A model generated the notes under the pieces. That model searched no databases, was not told where the DNA came from, and saw only the letters and a program-made list of their open reading frames with translations. The position numbers and the translations under genes were made by a program. Positions 25,801-44,932 of a stretch of 64,000 nucleotides of DNA are shown piece after piece (position 1 is the first letter of the stretch; every line of letters begins with the position of its first letter). Source of the DNA: Candidatus Zixiibacteriota bacterium (GTDB lineage: Bacteria > Zixibacteria > MSB-5A5 > GN15 > FEB-12); the NCBI GenBank assembly GCA_029860345.1, contig JAOUBJ010000005.1:1-64000 (forward strand), read 5' to 3'.

Positions 25801-25950
25801 TATTCAGGCGAACCAATGTTCAAGCCGATGGCCATAGCCATCATTTTCGGTTTGCTTTTTGCAACCATACTGACTCTTGGGGTGGTGCCGCTGCTCTACT
25901 CCCTTTTCTTCCGAGTCAGTTTCAAGGATTTCACGTACAACAAAAGTTGA
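22858..25950 (+). CDS. RND-family (AcrB/MexB-like) efflux pump
   Basis: A 1030-residue inner-membrane transporter of normal RND length. It starts at GTG 22858, overlapping the adaptor stop by 4 nt. The N-terminal helix is followed by RGLPRDETPPFIIRTALVQT, near the usual RND start motif. Two sets of transmembrane helices flank porter and docking domains (FFVEKKVNDFVDSLLMAVAIVLL; FPIAMLIIVMLLVGQFNSVR). TM4 reads GMLVDNAIVMSESI: the first proton-relay aspartate is kept and the second position is Asn, a variant also common in non-AcrB RND subfamilies. The substrate is not predictable. It is third in an operon with TolC-fusion and adaptor, giving a complete tripartite system. Confidence 0.94.
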   Translation: MSITRLAIDRNRVTAVALVVIMLAGLYAYRGLPRDETPPFIIRTALVQTLFPGASPERVEQLVTDKLEKAIQEMPEIDFISSRSKTGASVIYVNIKEEHRNMRPIWDNLRRKVDKAGSELPEGIIGPIVNDEFGDVFGIVFAITGEGFTYAELKEVADVCRNELLLINEAAKVDIYGAQEERVFVEYNNARLAELRLSPLQLKNILETRNIIIPGGQIFTDREQLVLEPTGNFESVEDLRRTVIKLPGRSELVYLGDLARVYRGYIDPPNSTLHYMGRPCLALGVNLRQGGNLLELGEQVKEQVARFQTVYPIGVDFEFVAFQPFFVEKKVNDFVDSLLMAVAIVLLVMLVSLGLRTGLVVASLIPAAMIMALFLMSLLDIGLDQMSLASLIIALGMLVDNAIVMSESIMVQMRNGKTAKAAAINAASELRIPLLTSSLTTAAAFLTIFLAESTTGEYTAPLFKVVTITLISSWILSLTMTPLLCVRFMRVKVVASDAIPFNSRFYHKYRAFLLMVLKRRLLSLAGVVAVFMLAMFAFGWVPKIFFPPGDKPIVYAELKLPIGTPLKRTEKVVESIEGFMASELVADSTRSEGIVNWASFIGKGAPRYVLGVAPEPPSPHYAYILINTTTNDAALNRVIPHLEVYCQEQFPDLDATISDLTLGPPVKHPVEVRVSGADLDKVFDLADRVKERMLTHESLRNVTNDWGPRTKKLMVNINEARARRAGLTNRDIAFSLQTVLSGIKTTNYYEDDKLIPVTLRSIAAERDDIGKLQSHNVFSPLTGRSVPLMQVADVEVVWQPAEIHRRDRLKTVIVSANVAPGVNAIAAAQELDKWLKSEASGWEIGYKYELGGELESSGEANESIAAKFPIAMLIIVMLLVGQFNSVRRPVIILLTIPLGLIGVVIGLLVARSYFGFMTLLGVISLAGIVINNGIVLLERIKLEIEDNGLRPQRAIIEAAQHRLRPILLTTATTVGGLLPLWYSGEPMFKPMAIAIIFGLLFATILTLGVVPLLYSLFFRVSFKDFTYNKS

Positions 25951-26318: not shown

Positions 26319-29081
26319 ATGAAAAAGATATTTGGAAATCTCGTGGACATTCGCAAAGGTGAGATCGGCCTCACGCTGCTCATGTTCTCCAATTACTATC
26401 TGCTCTTAGTTACCTATTATTTTCTGAAGCCGGCGCGGGACTCGCTGTTCCTGGTAAAAGTCAGTTCCGAGATGCTACCGCTGGCGTTTATTATAACAGC
26501 ACTCGTTGCGGCGCCGCTTACCATACTCTACTCGCGGGCCAGTCGCTCGCTTAAGTTGAATCAATTGGTCAATGTGACCATTGCGGTCATCATCATCAAC
26601 TTAGTCATCCTGCGCTATCTGGTTCAGATCAATCAACCTTGGGTGTACTATCTGTTCTATACGTGGGTAAGCATCTACGGCGCCTTGACCACTTCGCAGT
26701 TCTGGCTTTTGGCCAACACCGTCTATGATGCATCTCAGGCCAAACGAGTGTTTGCTCTGCTGGGTCTGGGTGGTATCCTGGGCGCCTTCACCGGCGGCGA
26801 GGTCACGGCTTTCTGTATCGAACGCCTTGGCGTGTCAACTGAGAACCTATTGTTCTTCTGCATGGGTTTTCTTTTCATCAGCGCAGTGTTAAGCAGCGCC
26901 GCCTGGAAAAAAAGTTCCGGTCAATTGAGTCTCAGTAAGAAGCCTCGCAGCCGAGGCAAACCGCGAGCGGAAAAAATGGGACACTCGGTCAAGGCCATCT
27001 TTGGATCGAAGCATCTGAAACTAACCGTTGGAATCATCGCCCTAACCATGATGGTGGCGACCTTTGTCGACTACCAGTTCAAGTCGGAAGCAGTCAACGC
27101 ATTTCCCACCAAACCGGAACTGACTTCGTTTCTGGGACAATTCTATGGTCGTCTCAGTTTGGTGTCGCTCGGTCTGCAACTTTTGTTTGCCTACCGCTTC
27201 ATTCGTTGGTTGGGTGTCGGTGGCATCATAATGTTTCTCCCCATGGGATTGGTCCTTGGCTCGGCGGGCATGTTTATGTTTCCGGGTTTGCTGGCCGCCG
27301 TCCTCCTGCGTGGCGCCGATGGCAGCCTCAAATACTCGCTGGACAAGACCGGTCGGGAGTTGCTATTCCTGCCCATCCCATCGCAGCTAAAGGCTCGCAC
27401 GAAGATATTTATCGATGTGTTCGTCGACCGCTGGTTTCGCGGATTGGCCGGCGGCCTGTTGCTAATGTTCACCGCTGTCTGGAGTTTGTCGGTGCGTGAG
27501 ATTAGTCTGGTGGTGCTCGGCTTGCTCGCCGTATGGCTGGTACTGGTCCTGATGATGCGCAAGGAGTATGTCAACTCGTTCAGGACGGCGCTGGAAAAAC
27601 GACATATCGACGCTGACGACATTCGGATGAATATCAACGACACCGCGACGGTCAACGCCTTGATTGCCGGTCTCGGGTCAACCAATGATCGTCAAGTAGT
27701 GTACTCGCTTCGGATGGTCAAATCGGTGACCGATGTCGAACTCGTCTGGCCGGTCTTGCCGCTTCTCAGACACCGATCGGCCGAAGTAAGGCGGACAGCT
27801 CTTGAAGCCCTTCAAATCCACGGCGGCACCCAGCAAGTCGAGGAAGTGAAACGACTGCTCACAGACTCAGACATAAGTGTCCGCTGTGAGGCTATTCACT
27901 TTCTGAGTCAGCAAGAATCGCCCGACGGGATCGATACTATCAGACAGTACCTGGGCAGCACCGAGATTGGCATTCAACACGGCGCCTTGGCCTGCATGGC
28001 CACCTACGGAACGAGCGAGACGGAGAGACTCTTAACCGACCGGGTGATCAGCGGCATCATGCAGGAAACCTCGCCGGGCGCGGTCGAAGGCCGAGCGCAG
28101 TTGGCGCGTGCTCTGGGAACTATGCAATCGACAAAGACCGCCGAGGTCCTGGAACAACTTCTTGACGACCCATCGACAACCGTCATTAAGCATGCCATCG
28201 CCGGTGTCGGACGCAGGCAGATACGCAGCCGCGTGCCGTGGCTTCTGGAGCATCTGGCCGACCGGGAACTCAGGTCCGACTCAAGAGCCGCCCTGGCTGC
28301 TTTTGGTCGCAGTATCCTGGGAACGCTGCATGACTACCTCATGGATACCGGCATCCCGTTGAACATTCGCCGAAACATCCCCCGCGTGATGCGGCAGATC
28401 CCCATCCAGCAAACGGTAGAGATACTCACAACGGTTCTGGGTAAAGTAGAACCCACTATCAACGGCGCGGTAATCAAAGCCCTGAACAGTTTGCGAACGC
28501 GACACTCCGATCTGGCCTTCAACTCCGATGAACTCGGCGAATCGCTGGTCGGCCAGACTAAGAGCTACTACCAGGTCGCCCGGGTGCTGCACCTTCATCA
28601 GCAGTCCTTGGACAGTCCGGCCGGGAACCTCTTGCAAAGAGCCCTTCAAGAAAAACAACAGCAGAATCTGGAGAGGATATTCAGACTCCTGGGACTGGTG
28701 TATCCGCCCCGAGACATTTATTACGCCTACCTGGGCATCGTGAGTGGCCGCAAGATGCTCCACGCCAACGCCATCGAGTTCCTGGACAATCTGCTGCGTA
28801 CAGACATCAAGAGATATATTCTGCCCATTTTGGACGATGTTTCACCCGGCTTGATACTGCAAAAAGGAAGTGAACTGTTTGAGGTTGGCTACGCAGATCG
28901 CGAAGATGCTCTGACCTATCTCATGGAAGGGCCCGATTCGTGGTTGCGAGCCTGCGCCGTTTTCACTATCCGACCGGACGACTCGCATCGCTTGCAGGAA
29001 CTCGTCGAGAAGTCGCTGGACGATCCGGATCCGGTTGTCCGCGAAACGGCCAGATTAATGAAGGCGAACAAAGGGCCATGA
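26319..29081 (+). CDS. ATP/ADP-translocase-like (Npt/Tlc family) membrane protein with C-terminal HEAT repeats
   Basis: A 920-residue inner-membrane protein. Residues about 1-420 have about 12 transmembrane helices and the nucleotide-transporter start pattern (FSNYYLLLVTYYFLKPARDS), as in the Npt1/Tlc ATP-ADP exchanger family and its MFS relatives. LLGLGGILGAFTGGE at about 148-162 matches the family's second conserved loop. Residues about 430-920 are cytosolic HEAT-type helical repeats (RRTALEALQIHGGTQQVEEV; ALAAFGRSILGTLHDYL). In obligate intracellular bacteria Tlc proteins import ATP; free-living relatives with HEAT repeats have no settled function. It is followed at 88 nt by a cyclic-nucleotide-binding-fold gene and then by a histidine kinase, suggesting sensing rather than parasitic energy uptake. 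Confidence 0.85.
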   Translation: MKKIFGNLVDIRKGEIGLTLLMFSNYYLLLVTYYFLKPARDSLFLVKVSSEMLPLAFIITALVAAPLTILYSRASRSLKLNQLVNVTIAVIIINLVILRYLVQINQPWVYYLFYTWVSIYGALTTSQFWLLANTVYDASQAKRVFALLGLGGILGAFTGGEVTAFCIERLGVSTENLLFFCMGFLFISAVLSSAAWKKSSGQLSLSKKPRSRGKPRAEKMGHSVKAIFGSKHLKLTVGIIALTMMVATFVDYQFKSEAVNAFPTKPELTSFLGQFYGRLSLVSLGLQLLFAYRFIRWLGVGGIIMFLPMGLVLGSAGMFMFPGLLAAVLLRGADGSLKYSLDKTGRELLFLPIPSQLKARTKIFIDVFVDRWFRGLAGGLLLMFTAVWSLSVREISLVVLGLLAVWLVLVLMMRKEYVNSFRTALEKRHIDADDIRMNINDTATVNALIAGLGSTNDRQVVYSLRMVKSVTDVELVWPVLPLLRHRSAEVRRTALEALQIHGGTQQVEEVKRLLTDSDISVRCEAIHFLSQQESPDGIDTIRQYLGSTEIGIQHGALACMATYGTSETERLLTDRVISGIMQETSPGAVEGRAQLARALGTMQSTKTAEVLEQLLDDPSTTVIKHAIAGVGRRQIRSRVPWLLEHLADRELRSDSRAALAAFGRSILGTLHDYLMDTGIPLNIRRNIPRVMRQIPIQQTVEILTTVLGKVEPTINGAVIKALNSLRTRHSDLAFNSDELGESLVGQTKSYYQVARVLHLHQQSLDSPAGNLLQRALQEKQQQNLERIFRLLGLVYPPRDIYYAYLGIVSGRKMLHANAIEFLDNLLRTDIKRYILPILDDVSPGLILQKGSELFEVGYADREDALTYLMEGPDSWLRACAVFTIRPDDSHRLQELVEKSLDDPDPVVRETARLMKANKGP

Positions 29082-29169
29082 TGACTGACCGAACCGATCA
29101 AGACGGGAGGTGTTACATAGATTATGCGGCTATCACAACCAAGCAGCCGAAGACGAAAGGAGCAACCAG

Positions 29170-29592
29170 ATGCTCACAACTATTGAGAAAGTGATCTTTC
29201 TGCAAAATATCGATGTGTTCGCCGAAGTGCCCACCGAGCAACTGGGCTTGCTGGCCACCATTGCCGAAGAAGTGGACTTCGTGGCGGGCGAGGTCATCTA
29301 TAGTGAGGATGAACCGTCGGACGCACTCTACCTGGTGCTTGATGGAACCGTCAGGCTGCATCGCGGCGAGCAGGAGATAGCGCAGGCGACCAACAAAGAT
29401 GCTTTTGGCACCTGGGCGCTGTTCGATGAGGAACCACGGGTGGTGACGGCAACCGTTGTGGATGATGCCCTCTTGCTGCGCGTCGACCGGGAAGATTTCG
29501 TGGACCTTCTGGCCGACAATGTGCAAATCGCCCAGGGCGTAATGAAGACGGTCGTCAAGCGGCTGCGCAGTCTGGTGGAACGTGTGGCCTGA
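29170..29592 (+). CDS. Cyclic-nucleotide-binding-fold (Crp-like N-domain) protein
   Basis: A 140-residue protein made of one cNMP-binding domain without a DNA-binding or enzyme domain. The start at 29170 was chosen because AAAGGAG lies 7 nt before it; an in-frame ATG 60 nt upstream lacks this. The beta-roll core is visible (DFVAGEVIYSEDEPSDALYL, DGTVRLHRG). The phosphate-binding cassette reads FGTWALFDEEPRVVTATV: the usual FGExxLL glutamate is replaced, while the arginine in EPR is kept. Ligand binding may therefore be altered or lost. It lies between the HEAT transporter and a histidine kinase, 88 and 15 nt away. HEAT-type transporters in other bacteria are sometimes fused to cNMP domains, so it may act with the transporter. 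Confidence 0.85.
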   Translation: MLTTIEKVIFLQNIDVFAEVPTEQLGLLATIAEEVDFVAGEVIYSEDEPSDALYLVLDGTVRLHRGEQEIAQATNKDAFGTWALFDEEPRVVTATVVDDALLLRVDREDFVDLLADNVQIAQGVMKTVVKRLRSLVERVA

Positions 29593-29607: not shown

Positions 29608-31182
29608 ATGTCGAATGCCAACAATGCAGACCTGGATCGGCTTCGTGAATCGGAAGCGAAGTATCGTCGGATGATCGAAATGGCCAACGATGCCATTTTT
29701 ACCATCGATGCTTCAGATAGTTCTATTTTGGAAATGAACCCCAAAGCCGAGCAAATGACCGGCTATAGCCGAGAGAAACTGGTCGGGCGCAAAGTGTGGG
29801 AACTCCATCCACAAGATGAAATGGCGTCGGCGCAGGAGTTGTTTGCCGAAGTCGTGAAAACCGGTCGGGGTGCGCGGCATGAAATGCATCTCAAACGAAA
29901 AGATGGCGACCTTCTGCACATTGAAGTGAGCGCGTCGGTCATTACCTATGGCGACAAGAAAGTCATTCAGCGTATTTGTCGCGATGTCACCGAGACCTGG
30001 AATCTGCATCAGCGCAATGAGTACATGAAACAGTATTTCCGATCTATTCTCGATATGATGCCGATCGGCCTCGGTGTTCGCAAGAATATCGATAAGACGC
30101 CGGAAGTGGAGTTCGAGAACAGGAACCTTATAGACATGTTCAAACGTGTGCAGGAGCAGGGTTGCGACTGCGCCTGGCACGAAGGTGATAACTCAGGCAG
30201 AGTCGATGTTACGCCGGCCGTGAATCAAAACGGTGTCTACGCCGAAGAGCGCGTCTTTCCCAATGATAAGGTCTTTCAGTTCACCGCCAACTACTTTCGT
30301 GACTTTGAAAACAACTGGCGCGAACTGCAAATCGTTCAGGACGTCACCGAGCGACACCGCCTTCAACAACAACTACAAGCGGCCAACGAGGAACTGGAGC
30401 ACAAGGTACTCGAGCGAACGCGCGAGTTGGAAGAAAAGCACGCTCAACTTCTGCAGGCTGAGAAGATGGCCCTTCTCGGCAACCTGGTCGCAGGCGTTGC
30501 GCACGAAATCAACACCCCGCTGGGCGCGCTCAAGAGTAACTACGACTTATTTGTCAGGTCCATGGAAAAACTGCATTCAATCGCCCAACCGGCGCCGGAT
30601 GCATCCGACGAAGACAAAAAACAGGCTGCCAAGTTGTTTGAGAGTATCCGAAAACTCAACAGTATTAACGAAACTGCGACCGAGCGGATCGTAAACATTG
30701 TCAACTCGCTCAGGACATTTGCCCGCCTCGATCAGGCGGAGATGGACAGTTTCGACCTCCATGAAGGCATAGAGAACACGCTCGTACTCGTGGCGCACGA
30801 ATTGAAAAACCGCATTGAAGTGGTCAAAGACTATGGATCTCTTCCGATGATCGAGTGTTTTCCCAATCAACTGAATCAGGTCTTCATGAACATACTGGTC
30901 AACGCGGCCCAGGCCATCGAAGGTGATGGCACGATCGGTGTAACCACCCGCGCTGAAGACGGCTGGGTGTCGGTAGTGATCTCCGATTCCGGCAAGGGCA
31001 TTCCCCGAGAGGACCAATGGCGGATTTTTGATCCCGGTTTTACCACCAAAAGCGCCGGCGTCGGCACCGGGTTGGGACTCTCAATCGTGCACCAGATTGT
31101 CGGTGAGCACGGCGGAACCATCGAGGTTGAAAGCCGGCCGGGCGAGGGCGCAGTTTTCACAATCAAGCTACCCATTAAGTGA
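29608..31182 (+). CDS. PAS-domain sensor histidine kinase
   Basis: A 524-residue soluble kinase without transmembrane helices. PAS1 spans about 15-130 (MANDAIFTIDASDSSILEMN), PAS2 about 140-250 (QEQGCDCAWHE is an unusual Cys-rich loop). A coiled coil (about 250-285) leads to the dimerisation domain with phospho-acceptor H299 (VAGVAHEINTPLGALKSNYD). The catalytic HATPase domain has the N-box NAAQAIEGDG, G1 SDSGKGIPREDQ, F-box IFDPGFTTK and G2 GTGLGLSIVHQIVGEHGG. It starts 15 nt after the cNMP gene and ends 7 nt before the REC-PP2C gene. The likely path is phosphotransfer to one or both neighbouring REC proteins. Lack of membrane anchoring suggests a cytosolic signal, perhaps redox or the transporter state. 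Confidence 0.94.
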   Translation: MSNANNADLDRLRESEAKYRRMIEMANDAIFTIDASDSSILEMNPKAEQMTGYSREKLVGRKVWELHPQDEMASAQELFAEVVKTGRGARHEMHLKRKDGDLLHIEVSASVITYGDKKVIQRICRDVTETWNLHQRNEYMKQYFRSILDMMPIGLGVRKNIDKTPEVEFENRNLIDMFKRVQEQGCDCAWHEGDNSGRVDVTPAVNQNGVYAEERVFPNDKVFQFTANYFRDFENNWRELQIVQDVTERHRLQQQLQAANEELEHKVLERTRELEEKHAQLLQAEKMALLGNLVAGVAHEINTPLGALKSNYDLFVRSMEKLHSIAQPAPDASDEDKKQAAKLFESIRKLNSINETATERIVNIVNSLRTFARLDQAEMDSFDLHEGIENTLVLVAHELKNRIEVVKDYGSLPMIECFPNQLNQVFMNILVNAAQAIEGDGTIGVTTRAEDGWVSVVISDSGKGIPREDQWRIFDPGFTTKSAGVGTGLGLSIVHQIVGEHGGTIEVESRPGEGAVFTIKLPIK

Positions 31183-31189
31183 GGCGTGG

Positions 31190-32404
31190 ATGAACGCTAT
31201 AGCGGGACCAACCGAAGCCACAACCACTGTGATGATTGTCGACGATGAAGAGATCGTCACGCAGAGTCTGGGGTCGTTCCTGGAGTTTGAGACCGACTAC
31301 GAAATCGCCACCTTCCAGACCCCAAGAGAAGCCCTCCAGATGCTGAAGAAACGCCCTGTCGATCTGGTGATTTCGGATTTTCTGATGCCGGAGATGAACG
31401 GCCTGCAGTTTCTGGCCGAGGTGCGTCGCATGTATCCACAGGTTCCGCGGGTTATTCTTACCGGTTATGCTGACAAGGAGAACGCCATCCGAGCCATCAA
31501 CGAGATCGGACTCTACCAGTATCTCGAAAAACCCTGGGACAACGATCAGCTCAAACTCGTGGTCCGAAACGCCGTGACCAGCAAAAGCCGCCAAGAGCAG
31601 CTTGCCGCCAAGATCAAAGAGCTGGACGGAGTCCTCAGACAGCGCGACAGACTGTTCGAACGCGACGACTTGATGCGACGGGAGTTAGAAATGGCGCGCT
31701 GCGTTCAGGAAAAACTGTTGCCGAACGCGCTGCCCGGGTTGGATGGGTTCTGCTTTGAGGCGCTGTATCGTCCGGCCATGGAACTGGGCGGAGATTTCTA
31801 CGATATGATTGAACTGTCCAATGGTCGCTGGGCGTTGCTCGTTGCCGACATCACCGGTCACGGCATCCAGGCAGCGCTGTGCATGGCGTTGTTAAAATTC
31901 GCTTTTGGATCGTTCGCCGGTTCCGACTGCACGACGACACAGATAATCTCCGGCATGAATCCGATTCTGCATCGTGGCTTGCCGGAAGCGATGTTCGTGG
32001 CTGCCTTGATAACCATCATCGACCCGGTCGGCCGTAAGTGCACGGTTACCAATGCCGGATTACCCTTTCCCATGTTTGTCAACCGCCGCCTCGGCCAGGC
32101 CGAGTGCGTACCGAACGCCGGATTGCTGCTGGGCGTGATCGACCAAGAAGAGTATCAGCCCGGTGAAGAAACCGTCCTACAACTTGACAACGGCGACCGT
32201 TTGATAATATTCACTGATGGCCTGACCGAAATAAAAAACGATTCGGGTGAAATGGTTAACAACGATGCCGTGTGTGATCGTCTGGTGCAAAGCTGCGACT
32301 CGTCACTGGCGGAGGCCCTCAAGCTCTTGGCCGACGATGCTGCGAAGTACACCGATGTCGACAGTCGGGACGACGTCACCCTGTTTGGAATTGAAGCAAA
32401 GTAA
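31190..32404 (+). CDS. Response regulator with PP2C/SpoIIE-type phosphatase output (REC-PP2C, RsbU-like)
   Basis: A 404-residue protein. The start at 31190 was chosen because it lies 7 nt after the kinase stop and gives a proper REC N-terminus (MNAIAGPTEATTTVMIVDDE). The receiver domain has acidic pocket D18/D19/E20, phospho-acceptor D63 (LVISDFLMPEMNG), T91 and K114 (YLEKPW). A coiled linker (about 135-175) leads to a PP2C domain with GGDFYDMIELS, VADITGHGIQAALCM, FTDGLTEI and DDVTLFGIE. Such REC-PP2C proteins (RsbU, SypE, HsbR type) dephosphorylate anti-sigma antagonists or effectors on phosphorylation of the receiver. A cognate STAS or anti-sigma gene is not present nearby. Confidence 0.94.
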   Translation: MNAIAGPTEATTTVMIVDDEEIVTQSLGSFLEFETDYEIATFQTPREALQMLKKRPVDLVISDFLMPEMNGLQFLAEVRRMYPQVPRVILTGYADKENAIRAINEIGLYQYLEKPWDNDQLKLVVRNAVTSKSRQEQLAAKIKELDGVLRQRDRLFERDDLMRRELEMARCVQEKLLPNALPGLDGFCFEALYRPAMELGGDFYDMIELSNGRWALLVADITGHGIQAALCMALLKFAFGSFAGSDCTTTQIISGMNPILHRGLPEAMFVAALITIIDPVGRKCTVTNAGLPFPMFVNRRLGQAECVPNAGLLLGVIDQEEYQPGEETVLQLDNGDRLIIFTDGLTEIKNDSGEMVNNDAVCDRLVQSCDSSLAEALKLLADDAAKYTDVDSRDDVTLFGIEAK

Positions 32405-32419
32405 AGTACGGAGAATACT

Positions 32420-32902
32420 ATGGAAGATAATTCTGCTATCAGCACAGTTGTAATTGTCGACGACGAGGAAATGGTCCTGACCAGCCTGGCCTCGTTTTTG
32501 AATCTGGAAACCAAGTATACGGTCAAAACTTTTGTCTCCGCCGGAAAGGCCCTGGAGTTCATTAAGACCAATGACATCGACCTGGTGATTTCGGATTACC
32601 TGATGCCGGAGATGGACGGGATTAGTTTTCTGGCTCGTGTTCGTGAGCACAAACCGCAGGTGCCGCGCATCATTCTGACCGGCTATGCCGACAAAGAAAA
32701 CGCCATCAAGGCGATCAACGACGTCGGTTTGTTTCAGTATATCGAGAAACCATGGGACAACGAGGACCTTCTGATAATTCTGCGCAACGGTTTGGAACGT
32801 CAGATGCTGATGAAACAGCTTGACGACAAGATCAGTCAGATCAATAGTGCCTATGAAGAGTTGCAGGGATTACAGAAGGAAATTGTCAAGACCTTTGTCT
32901 GA
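32420..32902 (+). CDS. Single-domain response regulator (REC)
   Basis: A 160-residue protein of one receiver domain plus a short coiled C-terminal helix. Acidic pocket DDEE and phospho-acceptor D59 (LVISDYLMPEMDG), T-switch and lysine (FQYIEKPWDN) are all present. It is nearly identical in motif order to the receiver of the preceding REC-PP2C gene (YADKENAIKAIND vs YADKENAIRAINE), so the two arose by duplication. It lies 15 nt downstream in the same operon. It may work as a phosphate sink or shuttle between the histidine kinase and another target. The operon ends here; the next gene is convergent, only 15 nt away. Confidence 0.93.
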   Translation: MEDNSAISTVVIVDDEEMVLTSLASFLNLETKYTVKTFVSAGKALEFIKTNDIDLVISDYLMPEMDGISFLARVREHKPQVPRIILTGYADKENAIKAINDVGLFQYIEKPWDNEDLLIILRNGLERQMLMKQLDDKISQINSAYEELQGLQKEIVKTFV

Positions 32903-32917
32903 GCCGAAGCGATCGGA

Positions 32918-33796
32918 TCAGAACGTCCAGCGATAACTCACGACCATCGGCGCCCCGCCGCTTACGTTGTCGGTGACATCGGGGTCATCGGCAAATTGGT
33001 AGAACAACTCGGCCATCAGCACGCCCACCGCTGCACCCACCATAACATCACTGACAAAGTGCTTGTAGGCATGAATACGGCTCCAGCCAACAAACGACGC
33101 CCACGAGAACAACACTGTCGGGGGCAGCCAGCGATAGTCTCGATACTCCCCGGCATGAAGTTCTCTTCGCATGATTGCCCGTAGACGCAGATTGAGATAG
33201 GCACAGGCAAAAAACGCGCTGGAGGTATGCCCCGATGGGAACGACTGACGGTCATAGTAATTGTCAATCTTCTTTCGCTGACCTGCTAATTCCGGCTCCA
33301 AACATAACAACGGTCGCGGTCGGGCCACGATGGTTTTCAAAAGGCTGGTAGCACCCTGGGTGGCCAATACTCCCGATGTGAACAGAAACAAATCCTGGCC
33401 GAGCTCCTTTCCTTTCTCATACCGTGGCCAAGCCAGATCGGCTGAGACCAATAGGAGCGCTGCCGTGATTGCGGTATAACTGGAACCCCTCTTATTGTCC
33501 AGGAAGTTCGTCTGCCCCAGGCTGCATCGACCGCCCAACCAACGTTGCAACGACGCTTCCAGAGGAAGCGGTCCGCCTATCAACGGATTCCGCGTTGAGT
33601 CTGCATTGCCCACCAGGTGAGCCAGTCCAAAAACAGCTGCCGCCCCTCCACCGATAGTCGCTACCTCCCCGGTCGACAGGTACTCTTGCCCTTGCAGCGT
33701 CGGCGTGGCCAGGAGGACCAACGCAATAAACAACGCCATGAATCCGGTCGGCAGGCGAACAATAACTCGACTTGTCTCTTTAGTCGGTGTAACCAT
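32918..33796 (-). CDS. Exported PAP2-family phosphatase
   Basis: A 292-residue membrane or periplasmic phosphatase. The start at 33796 was chosen because TAGGAG lies just upstream, in preference to a TTG 21 nt earlier. A hydrophobic N-terminus (GFMALFIALVLLATPT) acts as signal or anchor. The three PAP2 motifs are present: KTIVARPRP (KxxxxxxRP), SFPSGHTSSAFF (PSGH) and SRIHAYKHFVSD (SRxxxxxHxxxD). The PAP2 superfamily includes lipid phosphatases such as undecaprenyl-diphosphate and phosphatidate phosphatases. Other helices around the motifs are fewer than in PgpB, so it resembles the soluble/secreted PAP2 group. It is a single gene, convergent with the response regulator. Confidence 0.92.
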   Translation of the reverse strand: MVTPTKETSRVIVRLPTGFMALFIALVLLATPTLQGQEYLSTGEVATIGGGAAAVFGLAHLVGNADSTRNPLIGGPLPLEASLQRWLGGRCSLGQTNFLDNKRGSSYTAITAALLLVSADLAWPRYEKGKELGQDLFLFTSGVLATQGATSLLKTIVARPRPLLCLEPELAGQRKKIDNYYDRQSFPSGHTSSAFFACAYLNLRLRAIMRRELHAGEYRDYRWLPPTVLFSWASFVGWSRIHAYKHFVSDVMVGAAVGVLMAELFYQFADDPDVTDNVSGGAPMVVSYRWTF

Positions 33797-33881
33797 ATTG
33801 GCTCCTACAATAGTCAATTCACCGTTTTGGTTCCACTAAATTAAATCCGCCCGGCCATACCCAGACAGAGCCATGCTACCG

Positions 33882-33937: not shown

Positions 33938-35419
33938 TTACGGTATGCAGTAACTGTCGGTCGTTTCGTGGTTGGAACCGGAATTGTAAGTTGTTCCGGA
34001 TTTGGTAACACCTGTCACAGTGGCATCAAAACACAACCCGGAGGAAATACCGCGCAGGGTGAACTTGATCACGCCGGAGCTGCTGGTAGTGCCGCCGAAG
34101 TTGTAATCACTGCCGCCAATGTGGTGCAGCGTCATGGTGACGTTGGCACCAGACACCGGGGTGGAATGATCCTCGGAGTGAATGGTCACGAAAACGTTCA
34201 GGTTCTTCTTGTTGTTGGCCCACGTGATCGACTCCACGTGCATTGTGTCGGCGCCGCCCGGAGGATCGCCGCCACCGAGGTCGTCACCGTTAGTGGTGTT
34301 GATAGTAGCCTTCTCAGCATCAAGCAGTCCCGAACCCTGATCGTCTGACGGCAAGCCGATGTCTTCGGCCGATGACTTCAAAAGGTTGCGAATCTGCTGG
34401 TTGGAGTATCCCGGATGAGCCGACCAGGCCAGCGCCGCACCACCGCAAACCATCGGGGTCGACATTGAAGTACCGCCCATGTAAGCATAGCCGCCACCCT
34501 TGTAGGTGGAGAGAATGTTGTCACCCGGGGCGATAACTTCCACCTCGGGTCCATGGCTGGAGAAACCGGCCAGGCCGTCCGAAGCGTTTGACGCGGAGAT
34601 CGCCATCACACTGCTCAGTGCAGCCGGATACTCAACGTCGGCGCCGTAGCCGTTACCGGCAGCCGCCACGATAAGCAGTCCGGCGTTCCAGGCTGCCTGA
34701 CAGGCATCATCTTCAGACTGAGCATAGCCGCCGCCATAGCTCATGTTCATGATGTCCATGCCGTTGTTGACACACCAGTCGATGCCGTCAAGAATGTCCG
34801 ACAGGTAGAAGCTGCCCGAACGAGAAATCTTCACAGCCCACAGATCGCATCCCGGCGCAACACCGACAACACCTTCGCTGTTGTCAGCCGCCCCGATGAT
34901 TCCTGCAACGTGAGTACCGTGACCAGACTTGTCATCCCAGTTGCGCCCGACGAAAGTTACGCCACCGGCCCAGGGTAGGTCGGGATGATCCATGTCACCA
35001 CCGGAATCGAGGATAGCAACTTTGATCCCGGCGCCGGTGTAACTGGAATTGGCCCAGACATACTCGGCATCAACGCGGTCAACACCCCAATCCAGAGTCT
35101 GGGCCGACGGGTAGCGAAGAATGTCTTCTTCCACATAGCGGACGTTCGGATCGTTTTTCAACGCTTCGATGCCTTCAGCCGTAAGGCTGGCATAGATGAC
35201 CGCGAAGTTCTGGTACTCGCGTTTGACGACACCATTGGATGCCGACAGCGCGGTGCGCACAGCGTTCTTGCCGGTGTAACCGATAAGGACATCGATCGGT
35301 CCATTGTCGGTCGCTACCGTTTCGCTTGATGACGAAGTCGGTGCCTGCTCCTTCGAACAGCCCGACACCAGGAGCACTACCATTGCGAGGGCAAGGATGA
35401 GGATTAGTGCATGTTTCAT
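33938..35419 (-). CDS. Subtilisin-like (S8) serine protease lipoprotein
   Basis: A 493-residue exported protease. The lipoprotein signal ends in VLLVSGC (C21). An inhibitor I9-type propeptide (about 42-103; DVLIGYTGKNAVRTALS) precedes the S8 catalytic domain. Triad and oxyanion residues are D138 (VAILDSGG), H167 (KSGHGTHVAG), N256 (AAAGNG) and S318 (GGTSMSTPM). A C-terminal beta-rich domain (about 390-493; FNFGGTTSSSGVIKF-like) is separated by a Gly/Pro linker (DDLGGGDPPGGAD) and may bind substrate or the envelope. The protein should be anchored in the outer membrane with the protease domain outward or periplasmic. A clear intrinsic terminator follows (33882-33915); the gene is monocistronic. 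Confidence 0.95.
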   Translation of the reverse strand: MKHALILILALAMVVLLVSGCSKEQAPTSSSSETVATDNGPIDVLIGYTGKNAVRTALSASNGVVKREYQNFAVIYASLTAEGIEALKNDPNVRYVEEDILRYPSAQTLDWGVDRVDAEYVWANSSYTGAGIKVAILDSGGDMDHPDLPWAGGVTFVGRNWDDKSGHGTHVAGIIGAADNSEGVVGVAPGCDLWAVKISRSGSFYLSDILDGIDWCVNNGMDIMNMSYGGGYAQSEDDACQAAWNAGLLIVAAAGNGYGADVEYPAALSSVMAISASNASDGLAGFSSHGPEVEVIAPGDNILSTYKGGGYAYMGGTSMSTPMVCGGAALAWSAHPGYSNQQIRNLLKSSAEDIGLPSDDQGSGLLDAEKATINTTNGDDLGGGDPPGGADTMHVESITWANNKKNLNVFVTIHSEDHSTPVSGANVTMTLHHIGGSDYNFGGTTSSSGVIKFTLRGISSGLCFDATVTGVTKSGTTYNSGSNHETTDSYCIP

Positions 35420-35649: not shown

Positions 35650-36930
35650 TCAGAGCTTACTGATGAGGATACCTTCGTACTCAATCCCCAATCGGTCCAG
35701 GGCAATGAAAAAATGCCCGAGCGTCAGCAGGTAATGATCGGAACGAGTGGCAATATCGTCACGAATGGTCTCTGCGATATTGCTGTAAAAGTAGTGCCCC
35801 GACTGCGCGTTGACTTTGACCAGTTTCTGCTCGGCTCGTTCATCGATGAAGAAAGCGCCGGCAGTCAGGAGAGGTTCGCCCGGGAACAAAAAGGCGTGAT
35901 TGGCGCGCGGCACTTTACGGCCGGTCTCTTTCTCGATACGATCAACCTCCTCGCGCAATAGCTCACGACCAAACCGGATTGTGCCGTTGAGGCCGACGGC
36001 GAAAAAGTACTCGCCCGATTGCAATCCATCGAATCCAGCCCTGGTCAGCGTCTGCAATACTCCTGGGTCCCCCCCGCGTCTGAAGAACTTGCTGTACTCC
36101 TCTTGCAACTTGGCTGCTTCTTTGTTGGGAAATGCCTCACGCGGCGCATTCTCTTTCATCCACTCCAGCGTCCTGACCGTAGGTACAAACGCCGTGATGC
36201 CACTGGCAAACTCGGTCGTAAGTTCGGCGTGTGCGTGCAGGAAATCTTTGTAGTTTTGGTATCCCTGGATGACATAGTCGGGCGGCTCGGCGTACAGATC
36301 GAAGAGCGCGGGTAGATCAAATTCGGTCGCCACCGGCGGCCTGTGTACCGAGTCGGCGTCCAGGCTCATCAGATATTGATAGACTGCGGCCTCGTATTTC
36401 GTGCGATAGGACTTGTTTTCCAAGAACCAGCCATCACTCGCCACCCGGTGCAGCCAGATCAAGTACCGGTTTTGTTGCACAGTGCAGAGTTGGATATCTG
36501 CATTCCATGGTGCGGTTTGGCCGTCCGACTTTTCCCCATTGAGTACGTTGCTATAAAAACGAAAAGAACTTGGCATGTATAACGGAACCACGAACGCCGT
36601 CCCCACGCTAACAGGTGAGTTGTTATGATACTGGTGGTTTGAAAGCGCCTCTGCTGCCCGCATGACTGCCGCCCGATCGACACAGATCAGCCGGGTTGTT
36701 CGGAACCAGGCGTAAAAAGTGGTATCACTATCGAACCATGGATCAAGCGGCCCGCAGGCGTAGCAGCCTTCAGCGCGCAGCAAGCTACCCAACTCTTGCT
36801 GCAACATCGTATCCTGGGCCGCCATCAGCGATCCAAATGCGTCTCCAATGATCGGCTCAGCCAGGCCACCGGAAACGGCAAAGACAGTTACCAAGACGAG
36901 AACAAATATGGGAATAATGCGAAGATGCAT
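35650..36930 (-). CDS. Secreted protein of unknown function, third gene of an outer-membrane module
   Basis: A 426-residue exported protein that I do not recognise. The start at 36930 (MHLRIIPIF) was preferred to GTG 36939 because AGGTGA lies just before it. A signal peptide ends near residue 25 (VSGGLAEP). The body is mixed alpha/beta with a Cys pair near residue 55 (GCYACGPLDP), a helix-rich middle (ALFDLYAEPPDYVIQGYQNY) and a C-terminal part with HAFLFPGEPLLTAG. No transmembrane helix or known enzymatic motif is visible. It starts 12 nt after the kinase-like lipoprotein gene and shares an operon with it and an Omp85 barrel, so it is probably their envelope partner. Confidence 0.75.
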   Translation of the reverse strand: MHLRIIPIFVLVLVTVFAVSGGLAEPIIGDAFGSLMAAQDTMLQQELGSLLRAEGCYACGPLDPWFDSDTTFYAWFRTTRLICVDRAAVMRAAEALSNHQYHNNSPVSVGTAFVVPLYMPSSFRFYSNVLNGEKSDGQTAPWNADIQLCTVQQNRYLIWLHRVASDGWFLENKSYRTKYEAAVYQYLMSLDADSVHRPPVATEFDLPALFDLYAEPPDYVIQGYQNYKDFLHAHAELTTEFASGITAFVPTVRTLEWMKENAPREAFPNKEAAKLQEEYSKFFRRGGDPGVLQTLTRAGFDGLQSGEYFFAVGLNGTIRFGRELLREEVDRIEKETGRKVPRANHAFLFPGEPLLTAGAFFIDERAEQKLVKVNAQSGHYFYSNIAETIRDDIATRSDHYLLTLGHFFIALDRLGIEYEGILISKL

Positions 36931-36942
36931 ACCGGTCACCTA

Positions 36943-38688
36943 TTAATCCATGTGCTCTATGCTCACCAGGCGAAACCGTTCGGACAGATCATCGAACCAG
37001 AGCAGCAGTCGGGTCGGTTTGGAAAGGCCGGTCTGCTGACGCTTGGTTTGAAGAATGATCTCATACAGATGGTCCTCCTGCTCATCGCTGCCCTCCTCGT
37101 GCGGAAACTGTGCCATCATAGTGCGCTGATCCTTCAATGACAAGGCGAATGATGTAACACGGAACTCGCGGGGACCGATGACATTTTCTCCACGGTATCG
37201 AACGGTCATGAAGTAGGTGGCGTTGTCCGGATAGAGTCCGTACTTGACGGCCAGATCCTCGAACCTGAATTGCAGATCACGACGGAAATACCCGACCTCG
37301 AAATAGTCGAGCGGGTTGATTTTGTTAAACCAGTGCCGTCCGATCTTGTCGCGCCGTTCGAGAAGCGTTCTTAGCAGATAGGCTTCCGCCTCCGGGTCGG
37401 AGTATTGTCCGGTGGAGACGAGCGCTTTGAGGTCCTCATCGGTGAAAGCCATCACAATCTTGGCGCCCCAGTAGGCGTCACGATCGGTCATGTTCTCAAA
37501 GGCCGGGTTGGGATAGATGGGATCGAACTTGTCAGGTTCGAACAACTTCGACTCAAAGTAACCAATCGACGGATACTGGTACGGTTTGGCGTACTCCCAG
37601 GGCCAGGTCTTAAGACCGAGTGTGACCAGCGAGACGAAATTGTCCCTAAGATCGAAAAAGTTCGCATACCCTTTTATCGGCGGCTTGGCGCCATGACCGT
37701 CGGCGCCCAGCGTGGAACCGAAATCCAAAAGGTAATGTCTGAGGAATCCCCGCCCGTTTTCTTCTTCAAACACATCAAGGCTGTTGTGGTCTTTGAGATC
37801 ATAATGGTTGACCAGCGATCCGATCACATACAGCCCGCGCAATTCCCGTCGATCCTCGTGTCGGCACCAGTCGTTGGGATCATCTTTGCGCCGACCCGAG
37901 TAGCTGAAAGGTCCCTTGACATTACCGAGCGACAACGAAGCCAACGACCGGATGCGTCCGTCCGGTTCATGATGAACCTCGGCCAGTATCTCATCGAGGT
38001 CCTCTTGCAGGAAGGGGCGCTTTTTGCCCGCCGCGTTTTTGATGGTAGCACCTTCTTTGATGCGCAACATTTCCGGCCGCCAATAAACAATCGTCTCCTG
38101 GGCCACATTGTAACCGCAGGCATGAAAATAACGCGACACTACAGCAGCGGCGCCGGTCCCCAATTGGGGGAACCCATGCGGGTCAAACTTAATAATGTAC
38201 TGGTCGCCGCGTGCATCCTCGATCCAGAATCCGGGCGTTTGACCACCCACTTTGGGCCGGAACACCGTCCACACGCCGGTCGTGTCGGGCCCCGCCGTTC
38301 GCGCCGGTCCGGTGCGGATTTGCTCGGTAGACATTCGTTCAAAACCATGACGATTGGTAAACCAGCTACTGTTCGGCACTTCATCGAAGCTGTTAATATT
38401 GACCGCCCGTTTTCTGTGTCCGGTCAAAATTCGGGCAGAACGCTCGAGGTCGAGAAGCTCAAGACCCGGATCGAAAACTGTGCGGTCAATGGTCGTCCAG
38501 GACAAGTCCGGTTCACGGAACTCTGGTTCGTCGATATTCCGTCGGTCGTCATCGACCCAGAACGGTCCCTCGGGGTCAATCCTGGGATGCGACCCGCACG
38601 ATGCCAACAGGATGATCGCACTTAGGGCCGGAACAATACCGCCCAAAATCGTGCTCTTGTTCACAATCCTGTGATCCTGCCTATTCAT
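36943..38688 (-). CDS. Lipoprotein with kinase-fold-like motifs
   Basis: A 581-residue lipoprotein. The start at 38688 (MNRQDHRIV) was chosen because GGAGG lies 6 nt before it; a GTG 15 nt earlier overlaps the upstream stop. The lipobox is LLASC (C31). I do not recognise the family. Some stretches look like a protein- or lipid-kinase core: YIIKFDPHG (K167, beta-3-like), LVNHYDLKDHN (D297, D300, N302, catalytic-loop-like) and LLDFGSTLG (DFG at 322-324). They occur in the right order and spacing for the PI3K/HipA-like group. The C-terminal about 200 residues are beta-rich. It lies 11 nt downstream of an Omp85 barrel gene and 12 nt upstream of a secreted unknown. A kinase role is inference from three short motifs. 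Confidence 0.7.
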   Translation of the reverse strand: MNRQDHRIVNKSTILGGIVPALSAIILLASCGSHPRIDPEGPFWVDDDRRNIDEPEFREPDLSWTTIDRTVFDPGLELLDLERSARILTGHRKRAVNINSFDEVPNSSWFTNRHGFERMSTEQIRTGPARTAGPDTTGVWTVFRPKVGGQTPGFWIEDARGDQYIIKFDPHGFPQLGTGAAAVVSRYFHACGYNVAQETIVYWRPEMLRIKEGATIKNAAGKKRPFLQEDLDEILAEVHHEPDGRIRSLASLSLGNVKGPFSYSGRRKDDPNDWCRHEDRRELRGLYVIGSLVNHYDLKDHNSLDVFEEENGRGFLRHYLLDFGSTLGADGHGAKPPIKGYANFFDLRDNFVSLVTLGLKTWPWEYAKPYQYPSIGYFESKLFEPDKFDPIYPNPAFENMTDRDAYWGAKIVMAFTDEDLKALVSTGQYSDPEAEAYLLRTLLERRDKIGRHWFNKINPLDYFEVGYFRRDLQFRFEDLAVKYGLYPDNATYFMTVRYRGENVIGPREFRVTSFALSLKDQRTMMAQFPHEEGSDEQEDHLYEIILQTKRQQTGLSKPTRLLLWFDDLSERFRLVSIEHMD

Positions 38689-38699
38689 CCGACGCCTCC

Positions 38700-39995
38700 T
38701 CACAACCTCTCCGAAAGTTGCAGATAGAAACGCATGCCTTCATCGCTGAAGGCGACCTGTGTGCTCAGTATCAGACCATTGTCGTTCCAGACGCGCAGCC
38801 CGCCCCCGGCCGAGTAGCGCCAGCCGGACATGTCGAAGTCATCGGTGATTGACTCAGCCACACGGGCTTCGTCGAGAAACATAAATGCATCCAGCGTCAA
38901 CCAGACAGGCCATCGGTATTCCACCGAGACCAAAGCCAGGTCGTTGTCCACGAATCTCCTCCGCCGGTAGCCGCGCAGATCATCCTCCCCGCCGAGATAC
39001 CTGCGCAGATAGAAAGGAACATTCGGCGAATCACCCACCGGATCGATTGATTCCACCAGCAGGCGCAGGGCGAGTATCCGTTTTTTGAAGATGTTCAGGT
39101 AGTGCCTGAGATTCAGGCGCGTGACCGTATATCCGAGATCGTCGGAACGGCCGACGCCATGATGGTAGGTCACACCGATTTCTTCGTAACCGCCGCGCGA
39201 TGGCTGCCCTTCGCTGTCGCGCCAATCGTGCGAGAGCGAGGCGCCGAACGCCATTAGGCGTACCGCAGCCAGGTCCTCAGCCGCCAGACCCAGATTACTT
39301 CCAATGCTGTCTATGTCTCCTTCGAGATTGGGATCTTCGCCGTCGTATATGTTCTGGGCATGGAAGGCGCCGTCGATGTTCAGCCGAATCTGTGGTTGCA
39401 GAAGATGGTGCCAACCTATACCCACATAGCTTTTCTCAAGACCAAAGGTGACTTCATCGGTTTCACGCGCGTCGTTACCGAGTCCGTAGAAACTCTCCCA
39501 GGGACGGTTTCTGTATCCGGCCGCAAAGTAGGGCCTTTTGAAGGCGCCGAATTTGTTGGGAGCACTGTATATGAGAGTGTAGCGCTGATAGTCGTTGGTC
39601 GAATAGGTAGCTTTGATTTTGAGCCGCTCACCTTTGGTGAAGACCTCCTTGGAGGTGAAGGCAAAACCTCCCTTGAACCCGGAGTTGGAACCATAGCCTA
39701 CCACCGGGTAGAAACCCCAGACGCGATCGACTTTGGCAAACAGGGAACGGAATCGAGCCACCGGCTTGGTCAGGATAACATCGTTGACAACGAGTCCGAC
39801 TACACCTTCGACCGTGTGAAGCGGCAGCTTGATTATCGTCTGCGGAAGCCGCAGAACCTTCTGCCCCAATGACCGCTTGTGCTTTAGCTGCCTGCGGACA
39901 CGCGTCGTATCTATCTCGTAGGCATCAACGGTTACCGCCTGCATCAGAGGGGCAATTATCAATAAGGAGACCAGGATATAACGCCGAAGCATCAT
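38700..39995 (-). CDS. Omp85/BamA-superfamily outer-membrane barrel without POTRA domains
   Basis: A 431-residue outer-membrane protein. The start at 39995 gives the best signal peptide (RRYILVSLLIIAPLMQAVTV); a TTG start 33 nt upstream is possible. After a basic linker (about 25-90) the protein is a beta-barrel of about 340 residues with aromatic-rich strands. The Omp85 lid-lock signature is seen as YLGGEDDLRGYRRRRF (the xRGY motif). No POTRA repeat precedes the barrel; full BamA/TamA have several. It therefore resembles the patatin-D15/surface-antigen subgroup. It is the first gene of a three-gene minus-strand operon with the kinase-like lipoprotein and the secreted unknown, so it could export or anchor them. 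Confidence 0.88.
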   Translation of the reverse strand: MMLRRYILVSLLIIAPLMQAVTVDAYEIDTTRVRRQLKHKRSLGQKVLRLPQTIIKLPLHTVEGVVGLVVNDVILTKPVARFRSLFAKVDRVWGFYPVVGYGSNSGFKGGFAFTSKEVFTKGERLKIKATYSTNDYQRYTLIYSAPNKFGAFKRPYFAAGYRNRPWESFYGLGNDARETDEVTFGLEKSYVGIGWHHLLQPQIRLNIDGAFHAQNIYDGEDPNLEGDIDSIGSNLGLAAEDLAAVRLMAFGASLSHDWRDSEGQPSRGGYEEIGVTYHHGVGRSDDLGYTVTRLNLRHYLNIFKKRILALRLLVESIDPVGDSPNVPFYLRRYLGGEDDLRGYRRRRFVDNDLALVSVEYRWPVWLTLDAFMFLDEARVAESITDDFDMSGWRYSAGGGLRVWNDNGLILSTQVAFSDEGMRFYLQLSERL

Positions 39996-43591: not shown

Positions 43592-44932
43592 ATGAAGCCA
43601 GTCGGTAGTACTACCAGAGTATCCGGATTCCACGTGATCAGAGCAATAACGGTCTTAGGAATAATTGCGACCCTCGGGGCTGTTGTCGCAAAAACTGAAG
43701 CGGCCCCGCAAAACTCCCAGCCCACTGACAAAAAGTCCATTGCCGTGCATACGCCGAGTTCGTCTGAACCTGCGGGAATCGACGCTTACCCCTTCCATCG
43801 ACCGGTCACCTCAGGGGCTATCATACTCTATCAAAAACTGATCAGCCCGGCCCGCGGCACGTCGTGTCCGATGCATCCACACTGCTCCGAATATGGCCGC
43901 GAGGCGTTTGCCAACCACAGTCCAATTCGGGCATATATCATGACAGCCGACCGGCTTCTTCGCTGCGGCCACGATCTCAATCAGTACCGACCAACCAGCG
44001 TTGATGGTCGCAGGCGTTACTTTGATCCCATTGACCTCGACCAGGCGTTCGGTGGCCGGATGATCGCCCTCGCCGCTGCCGGTGAGAGCGAATCCGCAGA
44101 TGACACCAACATCAATCCGCGATCATCGGCCAACAGCACAACCTCGACCAATGGCGATTCGGACAGTTTGCTGTTTCGGTTCGCTCGCCAGCTACAACAA
44201 GAGGGCGACAATCAACGCGCGGTTACCGAGTACCTCCGCCTGGTGTCATACTATCCGGACTCTCCATTTGGGGGACGGGCAAAGTTGGCGGCCGTGCAGT
44301 GCTATCATGCCGCCGGTTTGTTCTCGCAGGCAGTTGTCTACGGTGAATCCGTTCTGTCGGAACAGCCGGAGGCAACCATCGCCGATCCGATCAGATTTCG
44401 TGTCGCTGCTTCCAAATTCAAATCCGGTGACCTGGACTTGGCCCTGGCCGACTTTACGGGCTTGTCTCGAGGCGAGGGAAGTTTTCGCCAGCAGAGCATT
44501 ATGGCGCAGGGTTTAACGCATGCGCATTTGCATGATTGGACGGCTGCTGCCATCTCGTTCGATGCCATCGACGACTCTTCGCAGCATTCAATGAAAGCGC
44601 GCTACTGTGCTCGGTTAGCCCGTGAAGCGTCTGACCTGGATTACAAGAATCCCAAATTGGCCGGGCTTCTGGCGGTCGTACCGGGGCTCGGTTACCTGTA
44701 CGACGGCTATTATGGAACCGCCCTATCGGCGTTGATGGTGAACGGGCTGTTTATGTGGTCCACATACGAAGCTTTCCGCCAGGATCACAACGGCCTGGGG
44801 GTAACTCTGACAATTTTCGGCATGGGTTGGTATGCCGGTAACATATACGGCTCGGCCTACAGCGCTGTACGGCAGAACGAGCGGCGACGGCATGATCACC
44901 TGCTGAAGTTTGATCTTGGTTTCAAATTCTGA
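43592..44932 (+). CDS. YidD-domain/TPR/membrane fusion protein
   Basis: A 446-residue protein with a signal-like hydrophobic N-terminus (about 10-34). Residues about 75-138 are a YidD (membrane insertion efficiency factor) domain: LYQKLISPARGTSCPMHPHC, SEYGREAFANHSPIRA and the final RLLRCGHDL. Standalone YidD is about 70-90 residues. A TPR-like helical region follows (about 190-340; FARQLQQEGDNQRAVTEYLR). The C-terminus has two to three hydrophobic helices (about 350-430; LAGLLAVVPGLGYLYDGYYG) like the DUF5683/TM2-type small membrane domains. YidD assists YidC-mediated insertion in E. coli by means not fully known. Here it is fused rather than adjacent to yidC/rnpA, and is monocistronic behind a consensus promoter. 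Confidence 0.88.
   Translation: MKPVGSTTRVSGFHVIRAITVLGIIATLGAVVAKTEAAPQNSQPTDKKSIAVHTPSSSEPAGIDAYPFHRPVTSGAIILYQKLISPARGTSCPMHPHCSEYGREAFANHSPIRAYIMTADRLLRCGHDLNQYRPTSVDGRRRYFDPIDLDQAFGGRMIALAAAGESESADDTNINPRSSANSTTSTNGDSDSLLFRFARQLQQEGDNQRAVTEYLRLVSYYPDSPFGGRAKLAAVQCYHAAGLFSQAVVYGESVLSEQPEATIADPIRFRVAASKFKSGDLDLALADFTGLSRGEGSFRQQSIMAQGLTHAHLHDWTAAAISFDAIDDSSQHSMKARYCARLAREASDLDYKNPKLAGLLAVVPGLGYLYDGYYGTALSALMVNGLFMWSTYEAFRQDHNGLGVTLTIFGMGWYAGNIYGSAYSAVRQNERRRHDHLLKFDLGFKF

Follow-up and report, generated by a model that had tools for sequence, protein, structure and literature searches.

How could a bacterium use a kinase-like protein that is predicted to be exported from the cytoplasm, if the periplasm is regarded as ATP-free and ATP-driven chemistry is thought not to occur there? 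This question is raised by a locus from a Candidatus Zixiibacteriota bacterium, where a putative lipoprotein with a kinase-like domain is encoded next to an outer-membrane barrel. The window, i.e., the whole stretch of DNA that was analysed, comprises the first 64,000 nucleotides of contig JAOUBJ010000005.1. The features referred to below are the following:

26319-29081, plus strand: NTT-HEAT, a TLC/NTT-type ATP/ADP carrier domain with fused HEAT repeats (PF03219 E 3e-17, HEAT_2 E 4e-23)
29110-29592, plus strand: cyclic-nucleotide-binding-domain (cNBD) protein, directly after the carrier (PF00027 E 1e-17)
29608-31182, plus strand: PAS-histidine kinase (PF02518, PF13426)
31211-32404, plus strand: response regulator fused to a SpoIIE-type phosphatase (PF00072, PF07228)
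32420-32902, plus strand: response regulator receiver protein (PF00072)
32918-33817, minus strand: PAP2-superfamily phosphatase (PF01569 E 4e-23), a recurrent neighbour
33938-35419, minus strand: subtilase lipoprotein, flanked by gene 3 and PAP2 (Peptidase_S8 E 7e-55)
35650-36930, minus strand: gene 3, a secreted protein of unassigned family, its N-terminal half faintly RelA/SpoT-like
36943-38688, minus strand: lipoprotein with a kinase-like domain and a C-terminal FnIII-like domain (lipobox, predicted fold)
36946-37320, minus strand: FnIII / cytokine-receptor-like beta domain of the lipoprotein (mature residues ~427-551, VIA-align Z 8-8.5)
37321-38331, minus strand: kinase-like domain of the lipoprotein (mature residues ~90-426)
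37717-37725, minus strand: motif position D327-F-G of the kinase-like domain
37783-37800, minus strand: motif position D302-x-K304-x-x-N307 of the kinase-like domain
38188-38190, minus strand: motif position K172 of the kinase-like domain
38700-39995, minus strand: Omp85-superfamily outer-membrane barrel without POTRA (noNterm type), with an L6-type RG[YF] motif, 431 aa

The barrel, the lipoprotein and gene 3 follow each other in this order on the minus strand from 39995 to 35650, and the gaps of 11 and 12 nt between them, reported in a preliminary description of this DNA, were confirmed from the coordinates. The lipoprotein gene starts with the ATG at 38686-38688, immediately 5' of which lies AGGAGG, and stops at 36943; gene 3 runs from the ATG at 36928-36930 to a stop at 35650 and has a signal-peptide-like N-terminus. 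The residue numbers K172, D302, N307 and D327 used here count from a GTG start, and the ATG numbering is 5 lower (D302 is then D297). The lipobox of the lipoprotein reads LLASC, with its cysteine encoded at 38596-38598. This Cys36 stands after the signal sequence and is kept in 59 of 61 homologues, which meets the criterion for a bacterial lipoprotein. Elsewhere in the window (43592-44929) one protein combines a YidD domain with a TPR-like region behind it, and a DEAD-box helicase gene lies alongside.

Sequence comparison alone does not assign the lipoprotein to a family. The window protein has no Pfam, NCBIfam or PDB sequence-family match, and searches against PDB sequences with one protein, with 13 rows and with 31 rows of its family found none either. 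Membership in HipA (Pfam HipA_C / HipA_2) is not met, as the window protein is not matched; each of the two models weakly matches 3 of 31 homologues (best E 0.02), and the homologue from L163 reaches 14.5 bits against HipA, under the curated cut-off of 30.5. The Pfam models of Fam20C and CotH match nothing among 13 or 31 family members, so membership in these families is not met as well. The AlphaFold2 model of the lipoprotein (mean pLDDT 70, pTM 0.75) is of modest confidence between residues 231 and 370, a stretch that surrounds the catalytic and activation segments (pLDDT 41-73). Foldseek placed Fam20C-type (E 6e-4) and RIO kinases at the top for this model, with SidJ also among the matches, and VIA-align yielded CtkA (Z 14.2), PI4KIIa (12.9), Fam20 (12.8), CotH (12.3), actin-fragmin kinase (11.7) and HipA (10.6). 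The kinase matches of VIA-align span residues ~90-430, with Z up to 14.2 over 237 residues, and FnIII-type receptor domains match residues 426-540 with Z ~8-8.5. Kinase-like structures thus lead in both aligners and the matches to curated families stay under their cut-offs; therefore, the claim of a kinase-like fold is supported, while membership in a curated kinase family is not met. The preliminary description had proposed such a fold, and structure prediction with fold comparison indeed places the lipoprotein among kinase-like structures.

The arrangement of the putative catalytic residues agrees with this placement. In the model the lysine lies in the third strand of the N-lobe, the D-x-K-x-x-N loop comes after a long helix and DFG after the next strand pair, which is the order of these elements in kinases; the motifs YIIKFD, DLKDHN and LLDFGS, recognized earlier, are all present in the sequence in that order. 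Of 61 homologues that share 26-63% identity with the window protein, 60 retain K172, 58 D302, 60 N307 and 58 D327. Both tests for the PKL superfamily are met: a two-lobe kinase-like fold is seen in the predicted model, and the beta3 Lys, the catalytic Asp and Asn and the metal-binding Asp occur in order. Four key residues had been named in the ATG numbering, and three of these, K167 (K172), N302 (N307) and D322 (D327), are conserved, but D300 is not: it is the second Asp of DLKDHN (D305 in the numbering used here), which varies (D in 31 and A in 18 of 61). It is the first Asp of this motif, D302 (D297 in the ATG numbering; 58/61), that is the conserved one of the catalytic loop. The catalytic-loop Lys K304 and the Gly of DFG vary among the homologues too. 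In the window protein the probable counterpart of the alpha-C Glu is a Gln (Q180), which could be taken for a sign of a pseudokinase; it is not decisive, since the residue differs from one family member to another (44 E, 6 Q, 6 G, 2 D and 2 A of 61). Our data, as far as a predicted structure can carry them, support the assignment of residues ~90-426 of the mature lipoprotein to the HipA/CtkA/PI4K/Fam20/CotH kinase-like superfamily, with catalytic activity inferred. Both this activity and the extracytoplasmic location of the lipoprotein are predictions.

The partner of the lipoprotein belongs to a known superfamily. The Pfam Omp85 domain of the barrel protein (E 4e-19, 69.7 bits versus a cut-off of 24) and its L6 RG[YF] motif, kept across most of 51 barrel homologues, meet the criterion for Omp85. 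The lack of POTRA domains, mentioned in the preliminary description, holds: POTRA gave no match in the barrel protein, only ~100 residues precede the barrel domain, and the criterion for the BamA/TamA type is not met. A larger second Omp85-domain protein is encoded in the same window (53758-54624, plus strand, in an open frame of 1133 aa).

Relatives of the lipoprotein were found in 36 of 132 Zixibacteria genomes, in 15 of 82 genomes of a second phylum and in one genome of a third phylum; searches of plasmid and viral contigs found no relatives. These genomes give 56 distinct kinase loci, three of which can not be judged because of contig ends. A barrel gene of the same family lies directly upstream of the kinase, on the same strand, in 51 of the 53 evaluable loci from three phyla, and the junction is mostly overlapping or at most 12 nt long; the pairing is thus no chance arrangement. 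Several second-phylum genomes hold two or more kinase copies, and the barrel-kinase pair is duplicated in tandem at L190 and L198. An AsmA/YhdP-family protein is encoded between two barrel-kinase pairs at L189 (3516-6389, in a second-phylum genome), hinting at a lipid-transport context. The three genes had been described as one module, and they do adjoin here; however, the conserved unit is barrel plus kinase, not three genes, and gene 3 is lineage-specific, its slot being taken elsewhere by a metallophosphoesterase.

Gene 3 was found in 27 Zixibacteria genomes, 20 of which are kinase-positive. Its structure model is too poor for a fold search (pLDDT 54), and its profile weakly matches YwaC (E 0.01) and, for one member, Pfam RelA_SpoT (E 0.007); these matches are co-linear with the GYRS and IQIRT motifs. 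We rejected the identification of gene 3 as a RelA/SpoT synthetase: the matches and the profile comparison are weak, and the alignments show no conservation at the positions of the catalytic Asp and Glu. The RelA/SpoT link is only a lead. Several lineages that lack gene 3 encode in its place, behind the kinase, a secreted calcineurin-like metallophosphoesterase; this is not a remote homologue of gene 3, as hmmsearch gave E above 1 and the protein matches Pfam Metallophos. Of 48 kinase loci, 20 have a PAP2 gene at a distance of no more than 11 kb. The subtilase lipoprotein that precedes PAP2 in the window (33938-35419) carries an I9-type propeptide and is absent from the recurrent genes of related loci.

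Another recurrent neighbour, 8 kb from the kinase operon and missed by the preliminary description, is the ATP/ADP carrier. In the window the carrier set (carrier, cNBD protein, histidine kinase and response regulators) is convergent with the kinase operon. The carrier meets the TLC/NTT criterion (PF03219, 63.1 bits versus a cut-off of 21), and a profile of 14 of its relatives matches the solved ADP,ATP carrier 9j3n with an E of 1e-31. Upstream of it, at 22858-25950, a large multi-pass protein resembling an RND-type efflux transporter is encoded after a membrane-fusion-like gene. Of the Zixibacteria genomes (132 in all), kinase and carrier occur together in 30, the kinase alone in 6, the carrier alone in 3 and neither in 93 (Fisher 2e-20). 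The carrier occurs in 14 of the 15 kinase genomes of the second phylum (82 genomes; Fisher 2e-9) and in the single one of the third. Relatedness of genomes inflates such p values, and two controls were therefore run: counted by genus within the Zixibacteria family f1 the association gave p 1.5e-6, and permutation within families of the second phylum gave p 0.005. The association was first noticed in the window and then tested in the phylum of the window itself, which makes the second phylum the cleaner test; it is an independent replication of the association. All 14 control genomes lack the carrier. It should be kept in mind that genomes beyond two phyla are thinly sampled and that incompleteness of MAGs adds noise.

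The two genes are also physically close. They share a contig, at a distance of less than 20 kb, in 19 of 30 Zixibacteria, 12 of 14 second-phylum and 1 of 1 third-phylum genomes, and the gene order in the second phylum is often barrel, kinase, NTT, NTT-HEAT, cNBD. The opposite dependence is not seen: NTT genes are present without the kinase in sampled genomes of other phyla, and the NTT neighbourhoods in five such genomes contained no related kinase or barrel. Thus the dependence appears one-way, the kinase seeming to need the carrier and not the reverse, and the carrier must have other roles. Six sibling genomes of the genus of the window (G042-G047; 2.3-3.4 Mb versus 4.76 Mb) are without kinase, gene 3 and carrier, which suggests that the three were gained or lost as a block.

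Overall, the carrier is present in 45 of 52 kinase-positive genomes. The exceptions are G058 (a fragment), G069, G091, G094, G095, G097 and G239. Two of these, G069 and G091, have the kinase and no detected carrier, which counts against the notion that the carrier supplies the kinase. In G095, G097 and G239, all without the carrier, the sole kinase copy has lost catalytic residues. The losses observed are K172Q, D302E and D327G at L102, D302L and D327G at L101, and D327E at L202. These three loci and L103 form a divergent subclade, which has DFDD or a variant where others read DFGS and some members of which are catalytically depleted. The contrast between lost catalytic residues and carrier absence gives a Fisher p of 0.001, yet it reflects only about two evolutionary events; it is supportive but does not decide the matter.

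A kinase outside the cytoplasm needs a nucleotide, and the recurring carrier could supply ATP in the way the ATP/ADP exchanger AXER/SLC35B1 does for the ER (PMC6113206); we therefore propose an extracytoplasmic phosphorylation module. The TLC/NTT carrier of the inner membrane would swap cytoplasmic ATP for periplasmic ADP, where ATP as the carried nucleotide and the outward direction are inferred. The outer-membrane lipoprotein with its HipA/PI4K/Fam20/CotH-like domain would spend this ATP on phosphorylation of a periplasmic substrate; catalysis, the periplasmic side and the identity of the substrate (a client of the barrel, a lipid or a protein) are inferences as well. The substrate may be held or presented by the POTRA-less Omp85 barrel together with the FnIII-like domain, and extracytoplasmic phosphatases encoded nearby (PAP2, or in other lineages the calcineurin-like metallophosphoesterase) may undo this phosphorylation or finish the reaction. 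The observations beneath this scheme are the gene order, the lipobox, the predicted kinase-like fold, the conserved catalytic residues and the linkage of barrel and carrier to the kinase in separate phyla. Against it stand the absence of biochemical evidence for any step, the undetermined side of the lipoprotein (periplasm or surface) and the fact that the window carrier is not in the same operon as the kinase. It also counts against the scheme that the NTT family includes carriers of NAD or other nucleotides and that its characterised members serve import (Major, Embley and Williams, 2017; PMC5381601). On balance we regard phosphorylation fed by a dedicated inner-membrane ATP carrier as the best explanation and as somewhat probable, no more than that.

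One would argue that a protein with a kinase fold does not have to be a phosphotransferase, and that the lipoprotein AMPylates, glutamylates or otherwise uses the carried nucleotide, like SelO or SidJ. SidJ is indeed found by Foldseek, the variable K304 and DFG Gly and the existence of the DFDD subclade point the same way, and NTT carriers can move nucleotides other than ATP (PMC5381601). However, K, D-x-K-x-x-N and DFG, the canonical residues that one expects of a phosphoryl-transferring enzyme, are retained in the main clade, and we consider this possibility unlikely, without dismissing it. A different thought is that the lipoprotein is a pseudokinase or a nucleotide-gated structural partner, and that the real work, insertion of outer-membrane proteins or lipids, is done by the Omp85 barrel. 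The near-constant pairing with the barrel would be natural then, the copies at L101 and L102 keep the barrel despite their lost residues, the AsmA/YhdP-family gene at L189 would fit, and a role in membrane protein biogenesis was suggested for noNterm Omp85 proteins (Heinz and Lithgow, 2014; PMC4104836). Such a partner would hardly retain catalytic residues in the great majority of homologues down to 30-40% identity, nor would the carrier be expected to be absent where these residues are lost, and this idea seems to us quite improbable.

It could also be that the carrier has nothing to do with the kinase: it would serve nucleotide salvage or energy exchange under the cNBD and two-component genes, as a mere genomic neighbour of an independent barrel-kinase pair. 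The convergent orientation of the two gene sets in the window and the NTT genes of other phyla without the kinase are compatible with this, and NTT-HEAT with an adjacent cNBD gene is widespread in free-living bacteria, its function being left open in the study that described it (PMC5381601). But the one-way co-occurrence is strong in two phyla, and at L186, L187, L195, L197 and L198 the kinase is followed directly by NTT in operon order at a distance of 10-96 nt; coincidental neighbourhood is accordingly the explanation to which we give very little credit.

If phosphorylation fed by the carrier is what these genes perform, the consequences reach beyond the locus. For these bacteria the view of an ATP-free periplasm would change, given a kinase lipoprotein whose occurrence follows that of an ATP/ADP carrier in more than one phylum: our data suggest that the kinase-positive ones deliver ATP to this normally ATP-free compartment to run chemistry there. 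It would also provide a testable role for NTT-HEAT carriers and a partner for POTRA-less Omp85 barrels. All the parts are members of known superfamilies; for the assembled system of kinase, barrel and carrier we found no bacterial precedent and know of none, and a search of the literature available to us for a described periplasmic kinase with an ATP carrier returned nothing.

Compared with known systems, the window barrel resembles the noNterm Omp85 proteins in having neither POTRA nor another N-terminal domain, and the word kinase does not appear in the main text of the article on them (PMC4104836). The window carrier has the NTT-HEAT architecture and gene order described previously; no kinase linked to NTT-HEAT is reported in the part of that article at hand (PMC5381601), and the linkage is reported here. 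The lipoprotein shares its predicted fold with the HipA, CtkA and HipT kinases (VIA Z 10-14), and no other kinase family gives so much as a weak sequence match. In contrast to them, it stays below the curated cut-off, has a signal sequence and a lipoprotein anchor site, carries an FnIII-like domain and is paired with an Omp85 barrel instead of an antitoxin. The secretory-pathway kinases Fam20C / Fam20 and CotH belong by their kinase-like fold to this superfamily as well (Z 12-13), but the lipoprotein is bacterial and unmatched by their Pfam models, and the carrier linked to it is of NTT type, a family other than that of AXER/SLC35B1. Fam20C acts outside the cytosol and relies on ATP imported into its compartment. 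Whether several bacterial phyla run a counterpart of these eukaryotic kinases and ATP importers, i.e., extracytoplasmic ATP-dependent phosphorylation fed by a dedicated NTT carrier, which would give NTT-HEAT a role, is a generalization that we hold to be evenly balanced between true and false.
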